NCBI RefSeq assembly: GCF_014200435.1
Contig: NZ_JACHBR010000001.1
Location: forward strand, 1,860,001 to 1,924,000
Length of the DNA: 64,000 nucleotides
DNA from: Sphaerisporangium krabiense
GTDB lineage: Bacteria > Actinomycetota > Actinomycetes > Streptosporangiales > Streptosporangiaceae
Direction: 5' to 3'
Position 1 is the first letter of the stretch; the number at the start of each line of letters is the position of its first letter. The notes below the pieces were generated by a model. It was not told the DNA's origin and searched no databases. It was given only the letters and a program-made list of their open reading frames with translations. Shown here one piece after another: positions 14,390-36,147 of the stretch. The translations under genes were made by a program, and so were the position numbers.

Positions 14390-14570
14390 CGGGGTGAGCA
14401 GCCGACTCGATGTGGTCTCATGCGGGTAGATGTACATGGCGCCTGGTTCCCGCCCGGTCTCGGCCGCCGCGACCCGGTTGGAACCCGCGAGCTGGCATCG
14501 TTGGGTACGTGACACGCCGAACCGGCGGCCCGTCCCGCCGCCCTCCTCGCCCGTCCGGTGGTGGTCCCCG

Positions 14571-15233
14571 GTGAGAGTCCTGGTGGTCGAGGACTTCGAG
14601 GTGCTGGCCCGCTCCATCGGCACCGGACTGCGCCGCGAGGGGATGGCCGTCGATGTCGTGCTGGACGGGACCGACGCCGTCGACCGCCTGGCCGTCAACC
14701 GCTACGACGTGGTCGTCCTCGACCGGGATCTGCCCGGCGTCGGCGGTGACGACATCTGCCGGCGACTGGCCGGCGACCGCTCCGGCACCCGCGTGTTGAT
14801 GCTCACCGCGGCCGACACGATCGAGGACCGCGTCGAAGGGCTCGGCCTCGGCGCGGACGACTACCTGCCCAAGCCGTTCGCCTTCGCCGAACTGGTGGCC
14901 CGTGTCCGCGCCCTGGCCCGGCGGGCCACCCCACCGCTTCCTCCCACTCTGTCCTGCGGGGACGTCACCCTCGACCCGGCCCGCCGGGCGGCGTTCCGCG
15001 CCGGCCGGCGCCTCGAACTCAGTCCGAAGGAGTTCGCCCTGCTCGAATGCCTGCTCGCCTCGGCGGGCCTGGTCCTGCCCGCCGAGGAACTTCTGGCACG
15101 GGTCTGGGACGAGGCGGCCGACCCCTTCACGTCCGCGGTCAAGCACACCGTGCACCGGCTGCGCGCCAAACTCGGCGACCCCCCGGTGATCGAGACCATC
15201 CGTGAAGGCGGCTACCGGATCGGGCCGGCGTGA
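14571..15233 (+). CDS. Response regulator, OmpR/PhoB family
   Basis: 220 residues from the GTG at 14571 (VRVLVVEDFEVLA). The receiver domain has the acidic pair VVED, the phosphorylation site in DVVVLDRDLPG and the conserved lysine in YLPKPFAF. The winged-helix output domain spans about residues 125-218, with LSPKEFALLECLLASAG and VKHTVHRLRAKLGDPP. It is divergent from the exporter operon with 181 bases between starts, so it probably controls that exporter. The kinase gene begins inside its stop codon. Confidence 0.93.
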   Translation: MRVLVVEDFEVLARSIGTGLRREGMAVDVVLDGTDAVDRLAVNRYDVVVLDRDLPGVGGDDICRRLAGDRSGTRVLMLTAADTIEDRVEGLGLGADDYLPKPFAFAELVARVRALARRATPPLPPTLSCGDVTLDPARRAAFRAGRRLELSPKEFALLECLLASAGLVLPAEELLARVWDEAADPFTSAVKHTVHRLRAKLGDPPVIETIREGGYRIGPA

Positions 15234-16342
15234 CGGCCCGCCCACTCCCTCGGCGGTCCTTGCAGGCCCGGCTCACGTTCTTCTACGCCACGGGCCTCTT
15301 CGTCGCCGGGGTCGTCGTGCTCCTGATCGTCGAGGTCCCGCTCGCCGGCGTCGAGTCGGTGACGCGCGTCGGCGGTCCGCCTTCTGGTGCGATCACCGGC
15401 ACCGGGGACGGGATCGGCCCGCACCGGCTCCTCGCCGTCTCCGCCGTCGCGCTCGCCGCCCTCATTCCCATCGCCCTCGCCGGCGGCTGGTTCGTCGCCG
15501 GTCGCTTCCTCAGGCCGCTGCGGGCCATCACCGCCACCGCCACGGCCATCTCCGCGGGAAACCTCCACCGGCGCCTCGGCCTCGGCGAGCCCGCCGACGA
15601 GCTGACCGAGCTGGGCCACATCCTCGACGACCTGTTCGCCCGCCTCGAAGCCTCCTTCGACGCCCAGCGGCACTTCGTCGCCAACGCCTCCCACGAGCTG
15701 CGCACTCCCCTCGCCGGTCTGCGGACCCTCCTCGAGGTGACGCTCGCCGATCCCGGCGCGGACGCCGGCACCCTCCGCTCGGCCTGCGAGGAGGCCCTCG
15801 CTCTCGGCGGACACCAGGAGCGACTCGTCCGGGCGCTGCTCGCCCTGGCCGTCAGCGAGCGCGGCGTCACCCGCAGGGACACCCTCGACCTGGCGCACGT
15901 CGTCGCGGGAGTACTCGCCTCCCGCCGCGACCAGGCGGCACGGAAGGGCATCGACGTCGCCGAACGTCTGACGACCGCGGTGACGTCCGGGGACCTGGGG
16001 CTGATCGAAAGCCTCGTCGCCAACCTCGTCGACAACGCCGTCCGTCACAACCACCCGGACGGGCATGTCCAGATCACCACGCGGGCCTCCGGCACGGAGG
16101 TGACCCTCACGGTCGCCAACAGCGGGCCGGTCGTTCCCGAGGATCAGATCGAGCGGCTCTTCCAACCCTTCCAAAGGTTGGCCGCCGACCGGGACGGCCG
16201 CCGCGAGGGCTACGGTCTCGGCCTCGCCATCGTCAACGCGGTCGCCCAAGCTCACCAGGCCGCCCTCACCGCCGGCCCGCGCCCTCACGGTGGCCTGACG
16301 GTCACCGTCCGGTTTCCGGTCAGGGCGACGGCGCGCCGGTGA
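15230..16342 (+). CDS. Sensor histidine kinase paired with the upstream response regulator
   Basis: 370 residues; its GTG overlaps the previous stop (GTGA). Two transmembrane helices (about residues 15-40 and 65-90) enclose a short extracytoplasmic loop of about 30 residues, typical of kinases that sense within the membrane or through a partner transporter. A HAMP segment follows, then the H-box ASHELRTPLAGLRTLLE, the N-box NLVDNAVRHN and the G-box GYGLGLAIVNAVAQAH. The short loop and the adjacent exporter with a bulky outer domain suggest the exporter could take part in sensing. The last 23 bases overlap the convergent nuoN. Confidence 0.93.
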   Translation: MTARPLPRRSLQARLTFFYATGLFVAGVVVLLIVEVPLAGVESVTRVGGPPSGAITGTGDGIGPHRLLAVSAVALAALIPIALAGGWFVAGRFLRPLRAITATATAISAGNLHRRLGLGEPADELTELGHILDDLFARLEASFDAQRHFVANASHELRTPLAGLRTLLEVTLADPGADAGTLRSACEEALALGGHQERLVRALLALAVSERGVTRRDTLDLAHVVAGVLASRRDQAARKGIDVAERLTTAVTSGDLGLIESLVANLVDNAVRHNHPDGHVQITTRASGTEVTLTVANSGPVVPEDQIERLFQPFQRLAADRDGRREGYGLGLAIVNAVAQAHQAALTAGPRPHGGLTVTVRFPVRATARR

Positions 16343-17738
16343 AGAGGGGCAGGACGGCTCCTCCGGCGATGCCCAGGGCGAGGGAGGAGGCGGCGGCGAG
16401 GTAGGCGGTCGTGGCGGACCAGCGGCCGGCGGGGGCGTGGACGTCGGCGGGGACGCCGGGCGTTCGGAAGAGAGGGGTCAGCCAGCGGAGGTAGTAGAAG
16501 AGGCTGGCGACGGTGTTGGCCACGGCCAGGGCGGCCAGCCAGGTGTAGTCGCCGTTGACGGCGGCGGCGAAGACTTCGAGTTTGCCGAGGAAGACGCCGG
16601 TGGGCGGGGTGCCTACCAGGCCGAGCAGGCAGACGACGAGGACGGCGGCCAGGCCGGGGTGGCGGTGGGCCAGGCCGCGGTAGTCGTCGAGGGTGCGGGC
16701 GCTCGGGAGTTCGGTCACGACGGCGAACGCGCCGAGGTTGGTGACGGCGTAGGCGGCGAGGTAGAACAGCAGGGCCGGCTGGGCGAGGTCGCTGCGGGTG
16801 GCGACGGCCACGGCCATGAGCAGGTAGCCGACCTGGCTGATGGTGGAGTAGGCGAGCAGCCGCTTGACCGAGGTCTGGAAGAACGCGGCCAGGTTGCCGA
16901 GCGTCATGGACAGGGCGGCGAGCACGGCGAGCAGCAGCGGCCAGTTGACCTCGCTCGCGGGGAACGCCTGGTGGAGGAGCCGGAAGGCGGCGATCAGGCC
17001 GCCGATCTTGGGGAGGGTGGTGACGTACGCGGCGACGGGCGCCATGGCGCCGTCGGTCACGTCGGGCACCCAGTAGTGGGCCGGCACGCCGCCGATCTTG
17101 AACAGCAGCCCGGCCAGCACCGCGACGAGGCCGACGGCGACCAGCCCGTACGGGGCGGAGGGCAGCGCCGGGCGCAGCTCTCCGTACAGGGTGGCGTGGC
17201 CTGCGGCGTAGAGCACGCTCACCCCGGCGAGCATGACGACACCCGTCAGAGCTCCCATCAGGTAGTACTTCAGGGCGGCTTCGGTGCTGGTGGCGTCCTT
17301 GGCGAAACCGGCCAGCGCATAGGCGGGGACGCTGGCGAGAAGGTAGCCCGCGAAGAGCATCAGCAGGTCATTGGCGCCGATCATGGCGAGGGTCCCCCCG
17401 CCCGTCAGGAGCAGCAGCACGTAGTACTCGGCCTCGCGCTGGTTCCCGCGCAGCCACTCCACCGACATCGCGCCCACCGGCACCAGGGCGCCGAGCACGA
17501 TCAGCCGTCCCGCGCCGGTGGCGGTGTCGACCGCGAAGGCGCCGGAGAAGACCAGTTGGTCTCGCCCGCCGGCCATCGTGACCGCGGTGACGACGACGCC
17601 GGCCACGCAGGCCGCGGCGGCCAGGGCCGCGACGACCCACTGGCGGCGGCGGGGCAGCCACGATCCGGCGAGCAGCCCGGCGACGGCGGCGACGAGCAGC
17701 GCCGTCTCGGGGACGAGGGCGGCGAGGTTCTCGTTCAC
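16320..17738 (-). CDS. nuoN: NuoN-like complex I antiporter subunit lacking the key glutamate
   Basis: 472 residues, about 13-14 helices, in the size range of NuoN. The lysine positions of the proton path are kept (FKIGGVPAHYWVPDVTDG and TTLPKIGG). In the helix that normally reads LFxxLExLSLP this protein has LFAGYLLASVP: the essential glutamate is replaced by leucine at residue 133. ALKYYLMGALTGVVML downstream confirms the alignment. It is the last gene of the operon and overlaps nuoM by four bases. In canonical complex I the lost glutamate is needed for proton pumping by this subunit, so pumping here may be impaired or different. Confidence 0.9.
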   Translation of the reverse strand: MNENLAALVPETALLVAAVAGLLAGSWLPRRRQWVVAALAAAACVAGVVVTAVTMAGGRDQLVFSGAFAVDTATGAGRLIVLGALVPVGAMSVEWLRGNQREAEYYVLLLLTGGGTLAMIGANDLLMLFAGYLLASVPAYALAGFAKDATSTEAALKYYLMGALTGVVMLAGVSVLYAAGHATLYGELRPALPSAPYGLVAVGLVAVLAGLLFKIGGVPAHYWVPDVTDGAMAPVAAYVTTLPKIGGLIAAFRLLHQAFPASEVNWPLLLAVLAALSMTLGNLAAFFQTSVKRLLAYSTISQVGYLLMAVAVATRSDLAQPALLFYLAAYAVTNLGAFAVVTELPSARTLDDYRGLAHRHPGLAAVLVVCLLGLVGTPPTGVFLGKLEVFAAAVNGDYTWLAALAVANTVASLFYYLRWLTPLFRTPGVPADVHAPAGRWSATTAYLAAASSLALGIAGGAVLPLFTGAPSP

Positions 17739-19234
17739 CGGGCGACCAGGCCCACCAGGGTGCGGCCGGCCGGTTCGATGACGTCCAGCAGGAAGCGCGG
17801 CGCGACGCCGATGACCAGCCCGAGCGTCAGCAGCGGCGCGATGGAGAACGTCTCCGCGGCGACCATGTCGCCGAAGCCGCCGGCGCCGGTGGAGGAGGGC
17901 AGGCGCAGGGAGCCCATGAACATGCCGCGCAGCGCCCTCAGGAACAGCGCGGCGGTGATGAGGATGCCGGTCAGGGCGATGGCGGTGGCGACCGCCTGGG
18001 AGGCGAGGCTGCCGGTGAAGATCTGGAACTCCGCGATGAATCCGGAGAAGCCGGGGATGCCCAGGCTCGCGAACGCCGCGACACCGGTCGCGGTGGCCAG
18101 CTTAGGCGAAGGCGCGGCCAGTCCGGAGTACCGGTCCATCTCGTAGGTGCCGCCGCGGTCGTAGAGCACGCCGGAGAGCAGGAAGAGCGCGGCGGTGAGC
18201 AGACCGTGGCTGACCATCTGGGTGACGGCCCCGGTGACGGCGAGCGTACGGGCTTGCACGTCGGTGCCGGCGAGCACGCCCGCCGCGCCGACCGCGAGGA
18301 CGATGTAGCCCATGTGGTTGACGGACGTGTAGGCGATCATGCGTTTGAAGTGCGTCTGGCCGAGGGCCACCAGCGCTCCGTACACGGCGGAGACCGCGCC
18401 GACGACGATGAACACCATGGCGTATTCGCGCCAGGTGCCGGGGAGCAGCGGCATCGCGATGCGGACGAAGCCGTAGGCGCCCATCTTCAGCAGGATGCCG
18501 GCGAGGATGGCGGACCCGGCCGCGGGCGCGTCGGTGTGCGCCGGGGGCAGCCAGGTGTGGAAGGGGACGGTCGGGGTCTTGACGGCCAGGCCGGCGCCGA
18601 TCGCCAGCAGGACCAGCGCGGCGTACGCGCCCCGGCCTGCCAGGGGGTTCGCCCGGGTCAGGTCGAGCATGTCGAAGGTGTGCGGCGTGGCCGCCAGGTA
18701 CAGGCCGATGAAGCCGAGCAGCAGGGCGAGCGAGCCGATGAAGGTGTACAGGAAGAACTTCAGCGCCGCCGCGCGCCCCTGCTCGCCGTGCCCCCAGCCG
18801 GCGATGACGAAGAACATGCCGACGATCGACAGGTCGAAGAAGACGAAGAACACGATGAGGTCCAGCGCGACGAACAACCCCAGGCACACCGTCTGCAGGA
18901 AGAGGAACAGGCACGTGTAGGCGCGGACCCTGCGGGTCTCGCGCAGCGAGTACACGGCGACGGCGAGGAAGAGCAGGCAGGTGAGCGCCACCAGCGGCAG
19001 GGACAGGCCGTCCACGCCCACGTGGTAGCTCACTCCTGCGCTCGGGATCCAGCGCACCCGCTGCTCGTACCGCAGGCCGCCGCCGGCGCCGAAGTTCGCC
19101 CACAAGGCGATGACGAGCGCCAGGTCCGCCGCGGCGGTGGCGATCCACACCCATACACAGGCACGGCCGGGAAGCCTGCGCGCCACCAGGACGGCGCACG
19201 CCAGCAGCGGCAGGAAGGTGACGACGGTCAGCAC
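17735..19234 (-). CDS. nuoM: NuoM-like complex I antiporter subunit
   Basis: 499 residues, about 14 helices. Typical blocks are VGVDGLSLPLVALT, the lysine in LAVKTPTVPFHTWLPPAH, and AGSAILAGILLKMGAYGFVRI. The glutamate that usually follows FFVFF is an aspartate here (FFVFFDLSIVGM, residue 134), and the usual proline three residues after it is glycine, so the acidic charge is kept on a shorter side chain. The start at 19234 lies three bases after the nuoL stop on this strand and the end overlaps nuoN. It belongs to the membrane arm of the complex I-like assembly. Confidence 0.93.
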   Translation of the reverse strand: MLTVVTFLPLLACAVLVARRLPGRACVWVWIATAAADLALVIALWANFGAGGGLRYEQRVRWIPSAGVSYHVGVDGLSLPLVALTCLLFLAVAVYSLRETRRVRAYTCLFLFLQTVCLGLFVALDLIVFFVFFDLSIVGMFFVIAGWGHGEQGRAAALKFFLYTFIGSLALLLGFIGLYLAATPHTFDMLDLTRANPLAGRGAYAALVLLAIGAGLAVKTPTVPFHTWLPPAHTDAPAAGSAILAGILLKMGAYGFVRIAMPLLPGTWREYAMVFIVVGAVSAVYGALVALGQTHFKRMIAYTSVNHMGYIVLAVGAAGVLAGTDVQARTLAVTGAVTQMVSHGLLTAALFLLSGVLYDRGGTYEMDRYSGLAAPSPKLATATGVAAFASLGIPGFSGFIAEFQIFTGSLASQAVATAIALTGILITAALFLRALRGMFMGSLRLPSSTGAGGFGDMVAAETFSIAPLLTLGLVIGVAPRFLLDVIEPAGRTLVGLVAR

Positions 19235-19237
19235 GGG

Positions 19238-21109
19238 TCACCTCACCAGCAGCAGGAGGAGGAGCAGCACCCCGAAGCCGATCGCGGCCTGGACGTAGTA
19301 CTGGTGCAGCAGGCCGGTCTGCGGACGCCGCGCCCACCGGCCCAGGCGGCGTGCCCCGGCCGCGACCGCGCCGACCGACGCGTCGATCCCGTGGTCGTCG
19401 AAGCGAGCCGCGAGCCGGGCGGCGGACATGCCCGTGCGCCCGACGCCCCGGACGGCGGCGTCGAGGACACGGTCGTCGAAGGCGGCCAGCAGCCGGGCCA
19501 GCGCCATCACGGGACGGGCCACCAGCGCGTGCGCGCCGTGCTCCAGCCCCAGCCAGCGGACCGCCCATCGGCCGCGCTCCACCGGCGTCACGACGGGGCG
19601 GGTCCTGCTCCACCAGGCGAACGCGGCGGCGGCGAGCGCGACGGCCGCGGACAGGCCCAGCTCCCACCCTTGGGGCGAGGGCTCACCGGCACCGCCGACG
19701 GCCGCGCGCAGCCACGCGGAGAGCCCGGGAAGCCCGAACACTCCCAGCGTGGCGGCGGCGAACGCGAGCGCCACCAGCGGCGGCTTCATCGGCCAGGTGA
19801 CGCGCCGGGTGCCCTGTCGCTCGGTGTCGTAGCCGTCCTCGGCGTCGGCAGGCAGCGGTCGCCACACGTACCACAGTGCCTTGACGCTGTAGAGCGCCGA
19901 GACGGCGGCCGCCGCGAGGCCGGCGCCGTACGGCCAGAGACCGCGCTCGACGGCCGCGGCCAGGATCTCGTCCTTGGCGACCCACAACGACAGCGGCGGG
20001 AGTCCCGCCAGGGTCAGCGCCCCGGTGGTGAAGACGGCGCCGGTCACGGGATAGGTCCGGGCCGCGCCGCGCAGCGCGGGGAGCTGTTTGGTGCCGAGGG
20101 CGGTCAGCCAGGCCCCGGCGGCCAGGAACAGCCCGGCCTTGGTCGCGGCGTGGGCCATGAGCTGCGTGGCGCCGCCGGCGACGGCGCCGCTTCCGGCGGC
20201 GAGCACCATGAAACCCACCTGGGCGGCGGTGGAGGCCGCGAGCAGTTGCTTGAGATCGGTCTGCGCGACCGCGACGAGCCCCAGGAGCAGCGCGGTGAGG
20301 GCGCCGGCCCAGGCGACGAACGGCCCGGCCCAGCCGGTGGCGGCCGCCAGCGGCACCAGCCGCAGCAGGAGGTAGGCGCCGGCGGCGACCATGGTGGCCG
20401 AGTGCAGCAGCGCGGAGACCGGGCTCGGGCCCTGCATCGCCCGCGAGAGCCAGAAGGAGAAGGGCAGTTGTGCGGATTTGCCCAGCGCGGCGCACACGAC
20501 CCCGGCGGTGACCACGTGCAGCCAGGGCGACGCGACGGCCGGCAGCGCGTTCAGGCTCAGCGTGCCGGCGCCGCCGGCCAGGGCCGCGCCGGCGGCGACG
20601 TAGAGCCCGAGATCGGCGGTCCTGGTGGTGAGGAACGCGATGTCGGCGGCGCGCACCCGGCCTGGCCGGCGCCACCAGTACCCGATCAGCGCCCAGCTCA
20701 TGGCCCCCATCACCTCCCACGCCATGAGGAGCGACGCGAGCGTGGTGGCCGTGACGGTGACGAGCATGGCGCCGGCGAAGATCAGCATGAGGCCGAAGAA
20801 CCGTCCCCGGTTCTCGCCGGGGCCGAACTCGCCCGCGGAGAAGACGAGCACGGCGACGGTCACCGCGGCGACCGTGACCACCATGACGGCGGACAGGCCG
20901 TCCACCGCCAGCCCGGCGCGGATCCCGGCGAGGAGCGGCGCGCTCGCCCGGGGCCGCAGCGCCGCCGCGGCGACGGCCAGGGCGAGCGTCGTCCCGGCCG
21001 CGGCGACGCCCAGCGCGGGGACGTACCGGTCGAGCAGGTGCCCGGCGAGCGCGAGCCACGCGCCGGCCCCGAGCGGCACGGCGATGAGCGCCCACAGTAG
21101 CGCGCTCAT
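19238..21109 (-). CDS. nuoL: NuoL-like complex I antiporter subunit
   Basis: 623 residues from the ATG at 21109, which overlaps the nuoK stop by four bases. The antiporter core is well kept: glutamate in LLMAWEVMGAMSWALIGYW, lysine in LGKSAQLPFSFWLSRAM, and GPSPVSALLHSATMVAAG. The usual acidic LPDAM is LSRAM here. The C-terminus has the extended region that carries the lateral helix in canonical NuoL, ending in a last hydrophobic anchor. This is the least altered of the three antiporter-like subunits in the operon. The longer open frame reaching 21439 is an artefact of high G+C. Confidence 0.93.
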   Translation of the reverse strand: MSALLWALIAVPLGAGAWLALAGHLLDRYVPALGVAAAGTTLALAVAAAALRPRASAPLLAGIRAGLAVDGLSAVMVVTVAAVTVAVLVFSAGEFGPGENRGRFFGLMLIFAGAMLVTVTATTLASLLMAWEVMGAMSWALIGYWWRRPGRVRAADIAFLTTRTADLGLYVAAGAALAGGAGTLSLNALPAVASPWLHVVTAGVVCAALGKSAQLPFSFWLSRAMQGPSPVSALLHSATMVAAGAYLLLRLVPLAAATGWAGPFVAWAGALTALLLGLVAVAQTDLKQLLAASTAAQVGFMVLAAGSGAVAGGATQLMAHAATKAGLFLAAGAWLTALGTKQLPALRGAARTYPVTGAVFTTGALTLAGLPPLSLWVAKDEILAAAVERGLWPYGAGLAAAAVSALYSVKALWYVWRPLPADAEDGYDTERQGTRRVTWPMKPPLVALAFAAATLGVFGLPGLSAWLRAAVGGAGEPSPQGWELGLSAAVALAAAAFAWWSRTRPVVTPVERGRWAVRWLGLEHGAHALVARPVMALARLLAAFDDRVLDAAVRGVGRTGMSAARLAARFDDHGIDASVGAVAAGARRLGRWARRPQTGLLHQYYVQAAIGFGVLLLLLLLVR

Positions 21110-21411
21110 CCTTCGAGGTCCTTGGCCATGTCCGCCATGTCGATCCGACGGGTCCTGAAGATGGCGGTGGTGACCGCGAAGCCCATGGCCATCTCGACGG
21201 CCATCGCCACGACCGCGGCCACGACGATGACCTGCCCGCTCCCCACGGCGGGCGCGAGGAAGCGCCAGAACGCGGCGGCGCCGACGATGACGCCGCCGAT
21301 CATCAGCTCGATGCCCATCATGATCATCACGATGGACTGCTGGGCCAGCGCGCCGAAGAGGCCGATCGCGAAGAGCCCCGCGGCCAGCAGGAGGAACAGG
21401 TGCAGGGTCAT
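21106..21411 (-). CDS. nuoK: NuoK-like complex I membrane subunit
   Basis: 101 residues with three transmembrane helices, the normal size. Both glutamates needed for proton transfer are present: one in MMGIELMIGG (helix 2) and one in VAMAVEMAMGFAVTTA (helix 3). A short charged tail (RTRRIDMADMAKDLEG) follows. It overlaps both neighbours by four bases, as expected for a co-translated complex. The retained glutamates show that the central hydrophilic axis is under selection even though other parts of the complex have decayed. Confidence 0.93.
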   Translation of the reverse strand: MTLHLFLLLAAGLFAIGLFGALAQQSIVMIMMGIELMIGGVIVGAAAFWRFLAPAVGSGQVIVVAAVVAMAVEMAMGFAVTTAIFRTRRIDMADMAKDLEG

Positions 21412-21968
21412 CGGCCCACACCTCCCCCCGCGGGATCACGCGGCGGGCGCCGGTCGAGGTCGTCGCCGAACCGGTCGTAGCGCCCGCGGCGGGTGGCCAG
21501 CACGATCGCCCCCACGATCGTGGCCAGCAGGACGAACCCGAGCACGATCATCGTCAGCATCTGCGCTCCCATGAGGGACTCCCCCACCTGGAACGTCGTG
21601 TCCGCGGGCGGCGAGCCGGTCCGCCGCGGCCAGGGCACCAGGAAGATCCCGGCGGCCAGCGCCACGAAGACGGCGGCGCTGACGGCCAGAGAGCCGCGCT
21701 TGTTGTGCAGCATCGACATCGGCATCAGGCCCGCCGGGTTCATCATGTAGGCGATCATGAACACCGCCATGAGGGCCATCTCCATGACCATCATCAGGAT
21801 GGTGACGACCCCCAGATACGGCAGTCCGAGCAGCACCACCTCACCGCCCACGCAGATCAGCGACGTCAGCAGCGCGAACGTCGCCCTGGCCATGGAGTCG
21901 AAGCGGAACACCATCCCGCCACTGACCAGAGCCAGCACTCCGAGGATCCAGAACGCCGCCACCTCCAC
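21408..21968 (-). CDS. nuoJ: NuoJ-like complex I membrane subunit
   Basis: 186 residues, five hydrophobic segments, with the typical opening WILGVLALVSGGMVFRFDSM and the helix-3 segment LLGLPYLGVVTILMMVMEMA. In canonical NuoJ that helix contains a pi-bulge and conserved tyrosine/glycine; the usual EFLAxxQVxVYVGA is altered here to EVVLLGLPYLGVVTI. The tail is hydrophilic and arginine-rich (RRGRYDRFGDDLDRRPPRD). It is followed by nuoK with a four-base overlap and preceded by nuoH nine bases upstream. The nuoI ferredoxin gene normally found between H and J is absent. Confidence 0.88.
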   Translation of the reverse strand: MEVAAFWILGVLALVSGGMVFRFDSMARATFALLTSLICVGGEVVLLGLPYLGVVTILMMVMEMALMAVFMIAYMMNPAGLMPMSMLHNKRGSLAVSAAVFVALAAGIFLVPWPRRTGSPPADTTFQVGESLMGAQMLTMIVLGFVLLATIVGAIVLATRRGRYDRFGDDLDRRPPRDPAGGGVGR

Positions 21969-21977
21969 CAGTGCCCC

Positions 21978-22904
21978 CTAACGGCCGTTCAGGACGACCA
22001 GCGCCGGGACGAACGCCTGGAGGATGGACAGAGGGAGGACGACGACCCAGGCGAACTCCACATAGCGGTCGGCCCGGACCAGCGGGAGCCGTCGTCGTCC
22101 CCAGACCAGCAGGGCGAGCACGGCCAAGGTCTTGATCACCGACCAGGTCCAGGCCGGCAGGACGGGGCCGGCGCCGCCGCCGAGGAACAGCGGGACGGCC
22201 ATGGCCGATCCCGCCGCCAGCAGCAGCCACCGGCCCGCCGAGAGCAGCAGCCGGTCGACTCCGGACGTCTCGCCGAACACGCCCCCGGCGATGTCCCGGC
22301 CGGCCGGGTAGGCGAAGCAGCCGAGGAAGCCGAACGCCAGCACACCCGCGAGGTACACCACGAACGCCAGCGGCATCCACACCACGAACCACAGACCGCC
22401 CTGCGCGGCGGCGATGTCGCCGACCCGCAGCGACTCCGCCCGGATGGCGGGCGTCATGAGCGCGAACATCAACGGAAGTTCGTAGGCCAGCCCCTGCGCG
22501 AGGAAGCGGTACCCGCCGATGAGGCTGAACACGGAGTTCGGCCCCCAGCCGGCCAGCCACAGCCCGGCCCACGTCAGCACCTCCATCGCGTTGAACCACA
22601 CGACGCCCACCGACAGGTCGGCGACCACCACGTCCCCGACGGGGACGACCAGGACGGCCAGCACCGCCGCGACGGGCACCGTGATCACACCGAGCCGCCA
22701 CAGCGGCACGTCGGACGCGGGCAGCCGGCGGGGCTGCGCCACGAGCAGGCGCGGCACTTCCAGGAGGGGGCGGGCCGACATGGTGATCGGCCGTCCCGCG
22801 TCCCGCGCGGACAGGGCCGCGTCGTAGACCACCGCGCTCAGCGCGAAGGCCACCAGAAGCGCGGGGACCGCGAACAGGCTCCACCACGGCGTGACCTCAC
22901 CCAT
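21978..22904 (-). CDS. nuoH: NuoH-like complex I membrane subunit with degenerate quinone site
   Basis: 308 residues, about eight helices. The homology is clear in AGWGPNSVFSLIGGYRFLAQ, in the glutamate-bearing LAYELPLMFAL and in the C-terminal EFAWVVVLPLSILQ. The two loops that build the quinone chamber in NuoH are not recognisable: the early ERR...RxGPN segment reads YDAALSARDAGRPITMSARP, and the PFDLPEAExELVxG...EYS loop is reduced to YPAGRDIAGGVFGETSGVDR. A normal quinone reaction is therefore unlikely. It overlaps the NuoB/NuoD-like gene by eight bases. Confidence 0.88.
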   Translation of the reverse strand: MGEVTPWWSLFAVPALLVAFALSAVVYDAALSARDAGRPITMSARPLLEVPRLLVAQPRRLPASDVPLWRLGVITVPVAAVLAVLVVPVGDVVVADLSVGVVWFNAMEVLTWAGLWLAGWGPNSVFSLIGGYRFLAQGLAYELPLMFALMTPAIRAESLRVGDIAAAQGGLWFVVWMPLAFVVYLAGVLAFGFLGCFAYPAGRDIAGGVFGETSGVDRLLLSAGRWLLLAAGSAMAVPLFLGGGAGPVLPAWTWSVIKTLAVLALLVWGRRRLPLVRADRYVEFAWVVVLPLSILQAFVPALVVLNGR

Positions 22905-24087
22905 GGGCGGCTTCCGCGGGCCGCGCCGCCAGTTCGTCCGGGTCGGGATCGAGGCTGGCCACGATCAGCCGGGCCGCGGCCATCTCGGCGCCCTCCAGCA
23001 GCGCGGGCAGCACTCCGGCCAGGGCCGCCGACGGCGAGCGCGGGCCGCGCGCCGGGCCGCGCGGGCCCTCGTCCCGCGCGGGATCGAGCGGGCCCGGTTC
23101 CGCCAGCCGGTCCAGGTCCTCCAGCACCGTGGCGAGCCACAGCCGGTAGCGGGCCGTCACGTCGCCGTCCGCACGCGCCGCCGGCCCGCCGACGCCCGCG
23201 GCCGCCGCCTCGCTCGCCGAGAGCGGGCCCAGCCCGCGGGTCATCCAGGACAGCGTGCGCGACCGGCCGACCCGCCGCGCGAAACGCCGCACGCCCGGCC
23301 CGGCCGTCGCGGGCGCCGCGCCGTGCAGAAGCTCGTCGCGCAGCCGCCGCGCGGTCGTGGCCGCCGCGGGCCATCCCGCCACGGACAGCAACCTCCCCAT
23401 GCTGTCGAGGTGCGCCGCCGCCCGCCGCCGGCTCGCCTCCCCGACGGTGACGTGCTCTCCCGCGGCGGCACGAGCCCACGGCTCGGTCCAGAAGGGCGCC
23501 GCGGACGGCGCGTGGCCCGGCGCCGGCGCCACGAGCACGGCCCGCTGGACGACGTCGCCCTGCACGGTGAGGCGCAGGATCAGGCCGCCCGGCCAGTCGG
23601 CGAGGAACGGCCCGAGCGCGACGTGCAGCCGGTCCAGCGTCAGCCCGTCCCGGTCGGGGCCCTGCTCGGCCATCGGCAGCCCGGCGGGCATCTCCGTCTC
23701 GCCGTCGCCGTGCCCGCCCGCGTCGTCCGCCTGGCCCAGGTCTCCGCCGGAGAGGGAGACCGGGGCGGTCGCCGATGTCCGGTCGGCCAGGTGAGAGCGG
23801 GCCGCTTCGAGGGCCCCGGCGACCTCGCCGGCGTCGTCCACCTGGGTCCGGAAGCGCGGGGCGGGCATGTCCCGCCACAACCGTTCGAGCGCCGGCTCCA
23901 GATCAGGGCCGCAGGGACCCGTGATGAGCAGGATGTCGGCGTCCGCCGGTGTGAGCGCGAGCGGGAGGTCGCGCAGGCGCAGTTCCCGCTCCGCCGCCAG
24001 CCGTACCCGCGTGCCGCCGGGCGGCGTGGCCGGCAGCACGTGCGGACGGGCGGCCACGGCCCGCAGCGGCACGGCGGTCAGGTCCAT
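22897..24087 (-). CDS. Degenerate NuoB-NuoD-like fusion protein of the complex I-like operon
   Basis: 396 residues from the ATG at 24087, overlapping the nuoA end by ten bases. Residues about 48-80 (DILLITGPCGPDLEPALERL, then WRDMPAPRF) match the middle of NuoB, but the Cys-Cys and later cysteine ligands of cluster N2 are absent. Residues about 152-190 (LDRLHVALGPFLADWPGGLI, then LRLTVQGDVV) resemble the start of NuoD/49-kDa, with the GPxHPSTHG motif lost, and MGRLLSVAGWPAAATTARRL recalls the hydrogenase large-subunit fold. No [NiFe] or quinone ligand motifs are seen. It is soluble and probably caps the membrane arm structurally. NuoB and NuoD parentage is inferred from short motifs. Confidence 0.7.
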   Translation of the reverse strand: MDLTAVPLRAVAARPHVLPATPPGGTRVRLAAERELRLRDLPLALTPADADILLITGPCGPDLEPALERLWRDMPAPRFRTQVDDAGEVAGALEAARSHLADRTSATAPVSLSGGDLGQADDAGGHGDGETEMPAGLPMAEQGPDRDGLTLDRLHVALGPFLADWPGGLILRLTVQGDVVQRAVLVAPAPGHAPSAAPFWTEPWARAAAGEHVTVGEASRRRAAAHLDSMGRLLSVAGWPAAATTARRLRDELLHGAAPATAGPGVRRFARRVGRSRTLSWMTRGLGPLSASEAAAAGVGGPAARADGDVTARYRLWLATVLEDLDRLAEPGPLDPARDEGPRGPARGPRSPSAALAGVLPALLEGAEMAAARLIVASLDPDPDELAARPAEAAHG

Positions 24088-24428
24088 CGCAGCGCGCCCT
24101 CCCGCCAGGCGTAGGCGACACCGGCGAGGAGGATCGCCAGGAAGACGAACATCTCGATCACGGCGCCGACGCCGACGGCGGAGATGACCCGCACCCACGG
24201 GTACATGAACACCATCTCCATGTCGAAGGCCAAGAACAGCATCGTCACCGGATACCAGCGCACGTGGAACCTGCTCACCGCGTGCTGGGCCGGTTCCAGC
24301 CCCGACTCGAAGGGGCGGGCGACCACCGGGACGGCGGTCACCCGCACCCACCAGGCCGCGCCGTAGAGCACCGCCACCATGAGCGAGGCGAAGCCCAGCA
24401 GTGCGACGGCGGCGGCCGATCCGCTCAC
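24078..24428 (-). CDS. nuoA: NuoA-like complex I membrane subunit
   Basis: 116 residues, three helices, first gene of the operon. The core is recognisable: FESGLEPAQHAVSRFHVRWY, then FLAFDMEMVFMYPWV with the conserved Asp and Glu of helix 2. The cysteine of the canonical YECG motif in the first loop is serine here (FESG); that loop lies at the quinone-site entrance, in line with the loss of quinone motifs in NuoH. The short tail AYAWREGALRWT follows helix 3. Confidence 0.9.
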   Translation of the reverse strand: MSGSAAAVALLGFASLMVAVLYGAAWWVRVTAVPVVARPFESGLEPAQHAVSRFHVRWYPVTMLFLAFDMEMVFMYPWVRVISAVGVGAVIEMFVFLAILLAGVAYAWREGALRWT

Positions 24429-27816: not shown

Positions 27817-28212
27817 TTGCATCGATGCGCGGAGCAGGGACCGGATGAAAGCAGGCTGACGGGGACGCGTGACCGGCTTCTCAGGGCCGAGGAGGCGGCG
27901 CGGCTGGCCGATCTCTTTCGCCTGCTCGGTGATCCCACCCGCGCGCAACTCCTGTACGCGCTTCTCGAATCCGGCGAGTTGTGCGTCTGTGATCTGGCAT
28001 CGGTCGTCGCCGTGACGGACACCGCCGTTTCGCATGCTCTCCGCCTGCTCCGCACCGCAGGTATCGTGACAAGTCGCCGCGCCGGGCGGATGATCTACTA
28101 CCGGCTCGCCGACGTGCACGTGCGCATGCTGCTGGATCTCAGTCGTGAGCATCTGCGCCACGAGCTTCCCCGCCAGGACCAATTCACGGCATATCCCGTC
28201 GAAGGCGCATGA
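27817..28212 (+). CDS. ArsR/SmtB-family metal-responsive repressor
   Basis: 131 residues from the TTG at 27817, six bases after GGAGGT. The winged helix includes FRLLGDPTRAQLLYALLESG and VTDTAVSHALRLLRTAGIVT. Possible metal ligands are the cysteines in GELCVCDLA (the alpha3N-type site of ArsR/CadC proteins) and the aspartate/histidines in the last helix (LADVHVRMLLDLSREHLRHE), which match the alpha5 zinc/nickel/cobalt site (D-x-H...H-x2-H). Having both makes a sensor of Zn, Co or Cd plausible. The ZIP transporter 1.1 kb downstream on the same strand is a likely target. Confidence 0.9.
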   Translation: MHRCAEQGPDESRLTGTRDRLLRAEEAARLADLFRLLGDPTRAQLLYALLESGELCVCDLASVVAVTDTAVSHALRLLRTAGIVTSRRAGRMIYYRLADVHVRMLLDLSREHLRHELPRQDQFTAYPVEGA

Positions 28213-28510: not shown

Positions 28511-29275
28511 ATGTCAGACGAACACCGGGACCACGACCCGCATCATCGAGACCACGTACCGGAGCACGTCGTCACCGGGACCTCGATGCCGGCGGTCACT
28601 TCGAACCACCGTGACGGCGGCGGGGTGACCCCGGCCGACGTCCACCACAAAGTGTTCTCCACCGTCCGCTTCCGCGAGGGATACGACATGGCGGAAGTGG
28701 ACGGCTTCCTCGCGCAGGTCGAGGCCACGCTGACCGGCCTCCTGCACGAGAGAGCCGTCCTGACCGCCCGGCTCGGCGCGCTCCCCCGTTCCGGCGACCC
28801 GTCCCAGACCTCGGCCGGCGAGAACGTGGCGCGCATCGTCGCCGTCGCGCAGCAGGCCGCCGATCAGGTGATCCGCGACGCTCACGAGCAGGCGGCCGAG
28901 ATCATCACCCAGGCGCACGCCCGCGCGGACGCCGTCGAGGACGCCGCGGCCGCCGCGGCCGCCGTGCGCGAGCGCGACGCCGCGACCCGGCACCGCGCGG
29001 CCATGGCGGAGCTGGACGGCCTGCGCTCGACCCGTGAGCGCCGGATCCACGAGCTGTACGCCCTGACGCGTGACTACGGCGCCCGCTTCACCGGCAGCAT
29101 GGAAAGCCAGGCCCGGCAGATCCACGCGCTCGTCCGGGACCTGGAACGTCAGGCGGACGCGTTGTTGCGCGAGCTGGACCCCTCCTCGGCGCATGCCGCC
29201 GCGACGGAGCAGCCCGCGGCGGAGGACGCCGGGCCGCTCGGCCGGACCCCACAAGCCGCCGGACCATCGAAGTGA
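28511..29275 (+). CDS. DivIVA-domain coiled-coil protein
   Basis: 254 residues from the ATG at 28511 (GAGG six bases upstream; the TTG at 28496 is less likely). The histidine-rich N-terminus DEHRDHDPHHRDHVPEHVV is unusual. Residues about 40-75 are a clear DivIVA N-terminal domain: TPADVHHKVFSTVRFREGYD then MAEVDGFLAQVEATL. Coiled coil follows to about residue 230, rich in Ala/Glu/Arg. DivIVA proteins mark curved membranes and cell poles. The canonical actinobacterial DivIVA/Wag31 is longer and lies with ftsZ genes, so this is a paralogue. The ZIP transporter gene starts inside its stop codon, which suggests a joint function, perhaps placing or tuning the transporter. Confidence 0.85.
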   Translation: MSDEHRDHDPHHRDHVPEHVVTGTSMPAVTSNHRDGGGVTPADVHHKVFSTVRFREGYDMAEVDGFLAQVEATLTGLLHERAVLTARLGALPRSGDPSQTSAGENVARIVAVAQQAADQVIRDAHEQAAEIITQAHARADAVEDAAAAAAAVRERDAATRHRAAMAELDGLRSTRERRIHELYALTRDYGARFTGSMESQARQIHALVRDLERQADALLRELDPSSAHAAATEQPAAEDAGPLGRTPQAAGPSK

Positions 29276-30087
29276 CGGCGATCATGCTGAACCATTGGTC
29301 ACAGGCCGGAGGGCCCGTACTGAACGGACAGGCGCCCCGTGGCGGGGCATGGATCGCCGTGATCCTCGTGTCCCTGTCCACGCTCGCGGGATCGTGGCTC
29401 GTCAGAGCCAACTCCCGGCGCCTGGCGGGCTGGCTGGCGGCCGCCTCCGCGGTGATGCTCATCACCGCGGTGACCGACATGCTCCCCGACGCCTGGAGGG
29501 ACGCGCGGGAGGAAGGCGTCGCCCTCTGGGTGATCGGGATCGCCATGGCCGTGGGCTTCCTGGTCATCACCTACTTCACCCGCAAAGGATGCGGCCACGA
29601 CCACTCGGGGAGCCGGCCGGCGGGAGCTCACGCGCCCGGCCGGCATCGGCCGATCAAGCAGGTCATCGACGCCGCGCTGTTCGGCGGAATGGGCACGGCG
29701 ACGGCGCTGACCGCGCACCGGGCCATCGAGGGGGCGACGCTGGCGCTCACCGGGTCGGTGGTCGTCGTCCTGGCGCTGATGGTGCACTCCGCCAGCGAAG
29801 GGCTCGCGCTCACGGCCCTGCTGGACATCGCCGGGCAACGCGTGGCGCCATGGATGGTCGCCGCCTGCGTGAGCCCGGCCGTCGGGGTCGTCACCGCCTT
29901 CGTCAGCCCGATCCCGGGCGGAGCCGTTCCGGTGCTGCTGGCGATGGTCACCGGCGTGATGCTCCGGACGGCGTTCGTGGGGCTGAAGCTCGCCACCCGG
30001 GAGCGGGGCGGGCTGTCGCCCTGGCAGGTGACGGTGGCCGCGGCCGCCGCGGTCGGCATCGGCGCCCTGCTGCTGCTCGCGCACTGA
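29272..30087 (+). CDS. ZIP-family metal transporter
   Basis: 271 residues, about seven to eight helices; imports Zn, Fe or Mn in this family. The two metal-site helices are clear: HRAIEGATLALTG and HSASEGLALTALLD, each with the H-x3-E pattern. The loop between helices 3 and 4 has a small histidine/cysteine cluster (RKGCGHDHSG), the usual variable metal loop. A GTG at 29272 overlaps the DivIVA-domain gene stop; the ATG at 29284 is an alternative start. A perfect palindromic hairpin ends the unit at 30097-30134. The ArsR sensor gene lies upstream on the same strand. Confidence 0.88.
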   Translation: MTAIMLNHWSQAGGPVLNGQAPRGGAWIAVILVSLSTLAGSWLVRANSRRLAGWLAAASAVMLITAVTDMLPDAWRDAREEGVALWVIGIAMAVGFLVITYFTRKGCGHDHSGSRPAGAHAPGRHRPIKQVIDAALFGGMGTATALTAHRAIEGATLALTGSVVVVLALMVHSASEGLALTALLDIAGQRVAPWMVAACVSPAVGVVTAFVSPIPGGAVPVLLAMVTGVMLRTAFVGLKLATRERGGLSPWQVTVAAAAAVGIGALLLLAH

Positions 30088-35438: not shown

Positions 35439-35488
35439 CGCCTCGCAAGGGAGGCGGCTTTATGGCCGCCGTATGGCTCATGCCCTAG

Positions 35489-35511
35489 AACTTCTACGAC
35501 TTGTAGAAGTT
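35489..35511. promoter_or_regulatory. Inverted repeat, candidate BlaI-type operator before the DUF3105 gene
   Basis: AACTTCTAC and GTAGAAGTT are perfect 9-bp arms around GACTT, ending 18 bases before the DUF3105 ATG. The TAC...GTA core resembles the TACA/TGTA half-sites of BlaI/MecI operators, and a BlaI-type repressor is encoded 1 kb upstream. A terminator for the M56 gene is the alternative. Confidence 0.5.
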
Positions 35512-35529
35512 GTGAGGGATCGGAGCCAC

Positions 35530-36147
35530 ATGACCGACAGCGCGCACCAGACCCCCAGCAGGAAGGAGCGGCTCTCCGGCCTGCGGGCACGCCAGCACAA
35601 GGCCGAACGCCTGCGCCGGACCGTCGTGGTCGCGGGCTCCGCCGCCGCCGTCGGCGTCATCGCCACCACGGTCGTGGTGCTGGTCGCCGGCGAACGCGCG
35701 AAAGGCGCCCTGACGGAGGTACGGACGCTGAACATCTCGGCGCGCAAGCACACCACCGCGACGGTGACGTATCCCCACTCCCCTCCGGCCGGCGGAGACC
35801 ACGACCCGCGGTGGCTCAACTGCGGGGTGTACCCGGAGCCGGTGCGCGACGAGAACGCGGTGCACGCGCAGGAGCACGGCGCGGTATGGGTCACCTACCG
35901 GCCCGACCTGCCGCAGGCGGACGTCGCCCGGCTGCGCGCCCTGGTACAGGCCCAGCCGTACGCCATCCTCTCCCCCTACCAGGGCCTGACCTCCCCGGTG
36001 ACCGCCAGCGCCTGGGGTAGGCAGTTGGCCCTGCGCGGCCCCGACGACGCCCGCCTCCCGGCGTTCCTCCAGAAGTACGCCCAGAGCATCGACGCCCCCG
36101 AGCCCGGCGCTCCCTGCACAGGAGGCACGGGAGACCCCGTCGCGTGA
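35530..36147 (+). CDS. DUF3105 membrane-anchored protein
   Basis: 205 residues from the ATG at 35530 (CGGAG five bases upstream); a GTG/TTG at 35473 in the same frame lies upstream of the operator and is unlikely. Residues 1-35 are basic and cytoplasmic, one helix follows (VVVAGSAAAVGVIATTVVVL), and the outer domain carries the DUF3105 hallmarks: HSPPAGGDHDPRWLNCGVY, DENAVHAQEHGAVWVTYRPD and SPYQGLTSPVTASAWGRQL. The conserved histidines and a cysteine pair (WLNCGVY and APCTGG) suggest metal binding. The family often sits near copper or DUF305 genes. Its function is unknown; here it probably belongs to the BlaI regulon. Confidence 0.88.
   Translation: MTDSAHQTPSRKERLSGLRARQHKAERLRRTVVVAGSAAAVGVIATTVVVLVAGERAKGALTEVRTLNISARKHTTATVTYPHSPPAGGDHDPRWLNCGVYPEPVRDENAVHAQEHGAVWVTYRPDLPQADVARLRALVQAQPYAILSPYQGLTSPVTASAWGRQLALRGPDDARLPAFLQKYAQSIDAPEPGAPCTGGTGDPVA

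Follow-up and report, generated by a model that had tools for sequence, protein, structure and literature searches.

What becomes of the membrane arm of a respiratory complex I when the redox chemistry that should drive it is gone? The question is raised by eight genes of Sphaerisporangium krabiense (NCBI RefSeq assembly GCF_014200435.1, contig NZ_JACHBR010000001.1), which lie in a stretch of 64,000 nucleotides, positions 1,860,001 to 1,924,000 of the forward strand, that we call the window. Seven of them resemble nuoA, H, J, K, L, M and N, and the remaining one, between nuoA and nuoH, encodes a fusion protein that we call BD. Here we show that the operon encodes a redox-dead derivative of complex I with a rewritten E-channel (NuoJ and NuoK). 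The operon is mobile, it evolves under selection, and most of the relatives examined outside the Streptomycetaceae have it linked to copper genes. Because its redox parts are lost, its new methionines are invariant and its neighbours in many bacteria include copper-resistance genes, the product is probably a copper-handling membrane machine and not a respiratory pump.

The gene set itself is known. A partial nuoAHJKLMN operon, described as 'marine adaptation genes', has been reported from Salinispora, Streptomyces and Kocuria (PMC3314556, PMC4018334, PMC6002675, PMC6676996, PMC8622039), and the passages on it in all five papers interpret it as part of an ion-pumping NADH dehydrogenase (the ion being a proton, or sodium or a proton) that aids life in seawater or osmoadaptation. 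In the same passages comparative genomics places carriers among marine or salt-tolerant strains, while one of the five papers traces the carrier SM254 to copper-rich mine fluid, and the carrier K. marina SO9-6 is likewise given as coming from a copper-rich site. PMC6676996 describes the same gene order, with a 'hypothetical protein' lacking a homologue in UniProt or PDB between nuoA and nuoH; we liken that operon to ours by its described gene order, not by sequence alignment. The relevant passages of these papers do not mention a NuoB-NuoD origin, missing redox sites, the methionine set or a copper linkage, and among the open-licence PMC papers listed, judged by the beginnings of their abstracts, none recognisably describes a copper link for the operon. 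What is new is the single BD clade, the copper linkage, the metal-type linkers, the methionine set, and the retention of key residues in NuoL and NuoM as against the lost glutamate of NuoN.

Results

A sequence-only reading of the window had described eight packed, overlapping genes, and the gene calls agree. All eight are on the minus strand, running from 24428 to 16320, and five of the seven junctions overlap by 4-10 nt, the other two being gaps of 3 and 9 nt. TM denotes a transmembrane helix.

24078..24428, minus strand: nuoA-like (Pfam PF00507 chain 3, 96.5 bits)
22897..24087, minus strand: BD, a truncated NuoB, a linker and a NuoD without ligand motifs (396 residues, ATG start)
21978..22904, minus strand: nuoH-like, lacking both quinone-side loops, the N-terminal one and that of TM5-6 (PF00146 NADHdh, 143 bits)
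21408..21968, minus strand: nuoJ-like, with the methionine set, E63 and H88 (PF00499 chain 6, 50 bits)
21106..21411, minus strand: nuoK-like, with E35 and E73 and the gained M29, M31, M70 and M74 (PF00420 chain 4L, 42 bits)
19238..21109, minus strand: nuoL-like antiporter subunit (PF00361 Proton_antipo_M, 174 bits)
17735..19234, minus strand: nuoM-like antiporter subunit whose TM5 acid is Asp (PF00361, 215 bits)
16320..17738, minus strand: nuoN-like antiporter subunit with the TM5 Glu lost (PF00361, 185 bits)

All seven membrane-arm subunits exceed their Pfam cut-offs. The NADH module (NuoE, F and G), NuoC and NuoI had been called absent, and indeed no open reading frame (ORF) for any of them is found among the eight genes, to which the search was confined for C, E, G and I. 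Matches to NuoB, NuoD and NuoF do occur elsewhere in the genome, all within one cluster at C1:1383-1387k, a candidate for the second complete nuo operon that the sequence-only reading had proposed to look for. Another nuo cluster of this genome (G000:C1:1216-1233k, L056) has A, B, H, J, K, L, M and N matches and no NuoD match of its own; the genome's canonical NuoD sits in the other cluster.

The peripheral protein is the first place to look for redox centres. On its own, the window's BD matches the NuoB model weakly (E 0.0047, residues 44-92) and the 49-kDa (NuoD) Pfam model more weakly still (E 0.21, residues 277-308). Two of its homologues exceed the 49-kDa cut-off of 24 bits, at 48.6 and 30.4 bits, and in alignment the distant homologues retain more of NuoD. 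A profile of 21 BD sequences matches only model positions 41-82 in proteins taken as true NuoB (about 1e-8) and only about 264-367 in proteins taken as NuoD (5e-8); partial or repeated pieces (L012, L031, L033-L037) were left out of the alignments. Structure prediction, which the sequence-only reading had proposed, agreed in rank and fell short in score: with an AlphaFold2 model of mediocre quality, built from a 5-row alignment (predicted local distance difference test, pLDDT, 65; predicted TM-score, pTM, 0.49), the best 50 of 401 Foldseek matches were NuoD/49-kDa or related hydrogenase-type chains, and none reached E 1e-3 (best E 1.5e-3). On these profile matches and alignments BD is a conserved protein built of NuoB and NuoD remnants. 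That it keeps traces of both while lacking their ligands, as first noticed, is upheld. Only one cysteine is left in its 396 residues, its NuoB part stops ahead of what we take to be the last cluster-ligand positions, and GPFLADWPGGL (GPxLxDWPxGL in relatives) stands at the motif site of NuoD, replacing what we take to be the canonical quinone-binding histidine motif, GPxHPxTHG. In alignments of 29 and 21 sequences neither the N2 cluster ligands nor the quinone motif is present, and an alternative set of cysteine or histidine ligands, looked for in the same alignments, does not appear either, as no such column of the BD core is invariant or nearly so.

The alignments bear out the loss of both quinone-side loops of NuoH (N-terminal and TM5-6), and the canonical glutamate at its position 225 is replaced by arginine in 47/49 sequences. 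The record of L110 and L117, in which NuoH is split, is left out of these 49-sequence counts and included in those of 51 and 62. NuoA has gained His55 (R[FY]H) and Met75, each in 49/49. Its loop cysteine is absent, as the sequence-only reading had remarked, but this has no value as a diagnostic mark and was rejected as one, because plastid NdhC also reads YESG without it. NuoA H55, NuoL H602 and NuoH R225 are invariant or nearly so in the family and differ from three canonical sequences. By its sequence, this complex is unable to carry out quinone reduction along the known route.

Besides the lost glutamate of NuoN, the E-channel is the most changed part of the family. Our controls were 30 canonical NuoJ and NuoK sequences from actinobacterial loci, the best-scoring matches of their search. 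Ten NuoJ methionines (26, 59, 60, 64, 67, 71, 75, 84, 86 and 137) are present in 49/49 BD-type sequences and in 0-1/30 canonical ones, and Met76 in 48/49 against 0/30; M60 stands where 30/30 canonical NuoJ have a tyrosine. Over the first 150 residues the methionine count of NuoJ is 16.7 (12-19) in the BD type and 4.3 (1-7) in the canonical type. NuoK M29, M31, M70 and M74 occur in 49, 46, 49 and 45 of 49 sequences, against 0, 0, 0 and 1 of 30. These 10-11 NuoJ and four NuoK columns are conserved residues of the soft-metal type and putative metal ligands. By comparison with three canonical sequences, methionine columns gained at at least 90% number one in NuoA and none in NuoH, L, M or N. NuoJ E63 and H88 are invariant (49/49), and NuoK E35 and E73, the two glutamates that had been seen in the window, are kept in all or nearly all sequences.

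The antiporter subunits differ in what they keep. NuoL E132, K211, H236, K324 and K379 are present in 51/51, extending to the family the Glu/Lys pair read from the window, as are NuoM K219, K250, H343 and E402; we take the surveyed lysine, glutamate and histidine positions of both subunits to be proton-path residues. The NuoM TM5 acid is Asp or Glu across the family, with one gap, and Asp in the window. NuoN keeps K244 and K386 in 51/51 and K214 in 46/51, whereas its TM5 glutamate is lost: none of 49 sequences has Glu at 133, and 43/49 have Leu. Some NuoA, NuoH and NuoN columns were misaligned or mis-chosen in the 51-sequence survey, and for these we rely on alignment blocks and the 49-sequence counts. 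The NuoN loss and the NuoM change from Glu to Asp went beyond what the sequence-only reading had listed.

The operon is neither a local oddity nor decaying. BD homologues occur in 24/150 genomes of the Streptomycetaceae, which the analysis treated as the window's family, and in four named Streptomyces, and the 21-row profile reaches E <1e-20 in 36/396 genomes of the phylum. The order A-BD-H-J recurs in homologous loci that cover those genes, and the full eight-gene order recurs where long stretches were examined. Compared with four Streptomyces, BD has a ratio of nonsynonymous to synonymous substitution rates (dN/dS) of 0.34-0.44, and the other subunits range from 0.20 to 0.48. Because the order recurs and dN/dS stays at 0.20-0.48, we do not regard the operon as noise, and the same ratios reject a pseudogene. 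All eight genes travel together on plasmids. In a tree of NuoL, M and N, a split with support 1.0 separates 50 BD-type operons, which form one clade, from 5 canonical ones. Most deep branches of the clade are copper-linked; the Streptomycetaceae form two groups among copper-linked lineages, and some inner nodes are weak (0.211). The tree is most simply read as showing a loss of the copper linkage by most streptomycetes. Broken copies were also seen: in Pseudarthrobacter (L193, 8209-9371) an IS3 transposase gene separates the start of BD from nuoH, the operons of Streptomyces NBC_00080 and R. oxybenzonivorans (L120, L198) are truncated, and NuoH is split in Rubrobacter marinus (L117).

Metal-binding motifs are found in BD itself. 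Heavy-metal-binding (HMBD) motifs lie in the linker of 13/62 BD proteins, five such domains exceeding the cut-off in Sulfitobacter, and another 26/62 have at least six histidines between the NuoB and NuoD parts, which makes 39/62 together. This suggests that the peripheral protein may often bind metal, in a manner other than that of redox clusters.

In most relatives opened outside the Streptomycetaceae the neighbourhood points to copper as well. A plasmid search with NuoM and BD as queries gave a NuoM-like match in 377 records. From the hits H1-H33 we opened 20, chosen for spread and not at random, and in 15 of them the flanking sequence retrieved contains genes for copper or heavy metals (Mycobacterium paragordonae, Arthrobacter FB24, Halomonas KO116, Sulfitobacter faviae, M. 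avium HP17, Pseudonocardia alni, Curtobacterium C1, Acuticoccus, Rubrobacter marinus, Roseivivax marinus, Nitratireductor, Pseudarthrobacter, Ornithinimicrobium, Roseovarius indicus and Paracoccus 75233). Two of these are weak cases: the four-helix copper-binding protein of Pseudarthrobacter is encoded at a distance of over 11 kb, and Ornithinimicrobium has DUF305 and ArsR. The operons of M. paragordonae, Curtobacterium and Roseivivax have a gene for ArsR, a P-type ATPase or CueR at most 0.5 kb away. Several flanks contain genes for multicopper oxidase, cupredoxin, DsbA, cytochrome c or oxidase assembly. Metal genes were found in 0/4 control plasmids with a canonical-type NuoM, picked out of 30 candidate rows, two of them closely similar S. 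meliloti plasmids and one a lone NuoM gene.

Phmmer searches, with metal reference proteins taken from the plasmid loci and the window, place strong markers (P1B ATPase, CsoR, multicopper oxidase, DUF305 or HMA) at 14/18 loci outside the Streptomycetaceae against 1/20 random regions (Fisher 5e-6), and at 0/5 other regions of the window's genome, these five amounting to three places (two pairs overlap). The two samples share one record, L110 among the 18 loci being L117 among the 20 flanks. CsoR-like palindromes stand upstream of nuoA at 5/51 loci, against 0.36 expected, one of them in the Streptomycetaceae genome L053 in a stretch without metal matches; a CueR-like pattern was found at 0/51. 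Among Streptomycetaceae genomes DUF305 is present in 24/24 BD carriers and 100/126 non-carriers (p 0.015), CsoR-family copy numbers looked uninformative by eye, and lone weaker matches (ArsR, CueR, CopD) occur at the Streptomycetaceae loci L004, L048 and L050. In the window an ArsR-family gene (27817-28212, plus strand; HTH_5 above cut-off) lies 3.4 kb upstream of nuoA and a gene for a weak ZIP-like permease (29272-30087, plus strand) 4.8 kb upstream, with a DUF3105 gene (35473-36147) further off.

Two further features of the surroundings were observed. In three plasmids of alphaproteobacteria (L065, L196, L197) the operon has a gene for a DUF6629 protein upstream, and two of them have patatin-like phospholipase genes nearby. 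In the window a response regulator and a histidine kinase, identified from translation alone (14430-16342, plus strand), run towards nuoN, and the kinase ORF overlaps the end of nuoN by 23 nt.

Discussion

With respiratory complex I (NDH-1, nuoA-N) this operon shares A, H, J, K, L, M and N, remnants of B and D, and the relative gene order; unlike it, the operon has no C, E, F, G or I, no Fe-S ligands and no quinone motif, its E-channel is rewritten with methionines, and NuoN has lost its TM5 glutamate. Mrp cation/proton antiporters consist of subunits A-G, whereas here an A-H-J-K-L-M-N arm is joined by BD, and none of MrpB, E, F or G was identified among the seven arm subunits, whose best models are Nuo. 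They are likewise redox-free and made up of the same antiporter modules (PMC7419157); the Mrp subunit set also appears in a passage of PMC3314556. The nuo2 cluster of Streptomyces (SCO4599-4608) is likewise a second, incomplete nuo cluster, but by the account in part of PMC9239103 it lacks C, D, E, F, G and L and so differs from the BD operon. A different likeness concerns the methionines. Rows of them line the membrane path for Cu(I) in CTR1 and CusA, and NuoJ and NuoK would resemble these transporters in that respect, though the protein families are different.

We hold the evidence evenly poised on whether this redox-free derivative moves Cu(I), the likeliest substrate, or another soft metal through a methionine-lined E-channel, coupled to protons. 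In such a machine BD, by its homology, would cap the membrane arm at the former site of the quinone module, and the metal-binding linker that many relatives carry in BD would be the entry point of Cu(I). The ion would then pass into the former E-channel, where the NuoJ and NuoK methionines would replace residues of the coupling region, and so cross the membrane. NuoL and NuoM, with their kept lysine, glutamate and histidine residues, would pass protons in the opposite direction, and proton motive force would therefore drive the copper. The direction of movement is probably export. From sequence and gene neighbourhood we infer Cu(I) as the substrate, the route through NuoJ and NuoK, the export and the proton coupling, and the members in the Streptomycetaceae presumably do the same despite their mostly absent copper linkage. 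The fuller statement, that this is a new ion-driven metal pump whose E-channel would serve as a methionine-lined, proton-driven Cu(I) path spread on plasmids with copper-resistance genes through Actinomycetota and Pseudomonadota, is a tentative one, and we lean slightly against it.

Several observations weigh against copper transport. The methionines of NuoJ TM3 show no significant clustering on a single face of the helix (R 0.45, p 0.15), and because of this the methionine path rests on conservation and composition, not on geometry. Neither HMBD motifs nor a histidine-rich linker is found in 23/62 BD proteins, the window's included, whose linker has 2 histidines and no HMBD. No metal gene was seen in the flanks of 5/20 plasmid records (Rhodococcus pyridinivorans, Gordonia hongkongensis, Thioclava, and two with truncated copies, Streptomyces NBC_00080 and R. 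oxybenzonivorans). Metal genes abound on plasmids in any case, and the control, of four plasmids (0/4), is a small one. Strong markers at Streptomycetaceae operons (2/19, or three with a borderline CsoR at L049) are indistinguishable from those at random regions (1/20). Near the window's own operon the reference set matches only the ArsR-family, weak ZIP-like and DUF3105 genes, and a CsoR-like box in the window was sought with 0 matches. Two of the five CsoR-like boxes (L058, L114) adjoin a CsoR gene and may be its operator, and among the more complete Streptomycetaceae genomes DUF305 gives no separation (21/21 vs 96/109, p 0.13). The tree places the window's group first with L096, for which no metal match was obtained, and then with the copper-linked Pseudonocardia L114 (0.987), and the genome G115 (L031) shows only a BD fragment without neighbours.

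Could the arm instead be an Mrp-like cation/proton antiporter for salt or pH stress? This is close to the published marine and osmoadaptation reading and to the 'ion or proton exchange' of the sequence-only reading, whose wider claim, that the arm is kept for something other than quinone reduction, holds on the missing ligands and the dN/dS; the exchange itself has become a rival, as the methionine set and the copper genes point further. NuoL and NuoM keep their antiporter residues, NuoL is homologous to the Mrp A/D models, and passages of the comparative genomics papers list marine or salt-tolerant carriers. Antiport of this kind would nevertheless leave the NuoJ/NuoK methionines, the HMBD and histidine-rich linkers and the copper neighbours unexplained, the NuoN TM5 glutamate is lost in 49/49, and some published carriers (SM254, K. 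marina SO9-6) come, by the same partial accounts, from copper-rich sites, and we think it unlikely. The published assignment to an NADH dehydrogenase has the missing ligands against it, and a canonical enzyme of that kind is rejected by their absence from the alignments. A metal-binding linker in the very protein that stands in for complex I's driving module, with the proton path kept, would suit a copper-gated proton or ion conductor, in which metal at BD and NuoJ/NuoK opens or closes the arm and none is transported; a sensor, however, would seemingly have no need of 10-11 invariant methionines in NuoJ and four in NuoK, which makes this rather improbable.

The same methionine-lined path might also run inward, importing copper or delivering it to cuproenzymes such as cytochrome oxidase or multicopper oxidase. 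The multicopper oxidase, cupredoxin, DsbA and cytochrome c or oxidase-assembly genes of several flanks would fit, but P1B ATPases, CueR/CsoR and the CopB/multicopper oxidase sets point to copper excess, and we see little chance for import. Docking of the arm on the cell's canonical complex I subunits, to give a hybrid redox enzyme, is very improbable: a canonical NuoB/D/F cluster does exist in the same genome, and hybrid use has been suggested in a passage on the different nuo2 cluster (PMC9239103), yet in the operon a protein without ligands, BD, stands where NuoB and NuoD belong, the quinone-side loops of NuoH are lost, and the eight genes move together on plasmids. As for a decaying duplicate without function, some copies are broken, but with dN/dS at 0.20-0.48 and new residues invariant across two phyla the idea is hardly credible.

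How chemistry at one end of complex I is coupled to the movement of protons along the arm is not settled, and a natural complex I without quinone chemistry, its E-channel rewritten, would allow a test of what that channel is able to transmit. The copper-transport reading predicts a copper or silver phenotype and the loss of function when the NuoJ methionines are changed. If copper is the substrate, the family would have turned a respiratory scaffold into a metal transporter, and genes annotated as parts of NADH dehydrogenase and published as marine or osmotic adaptation would take on a new meaning.

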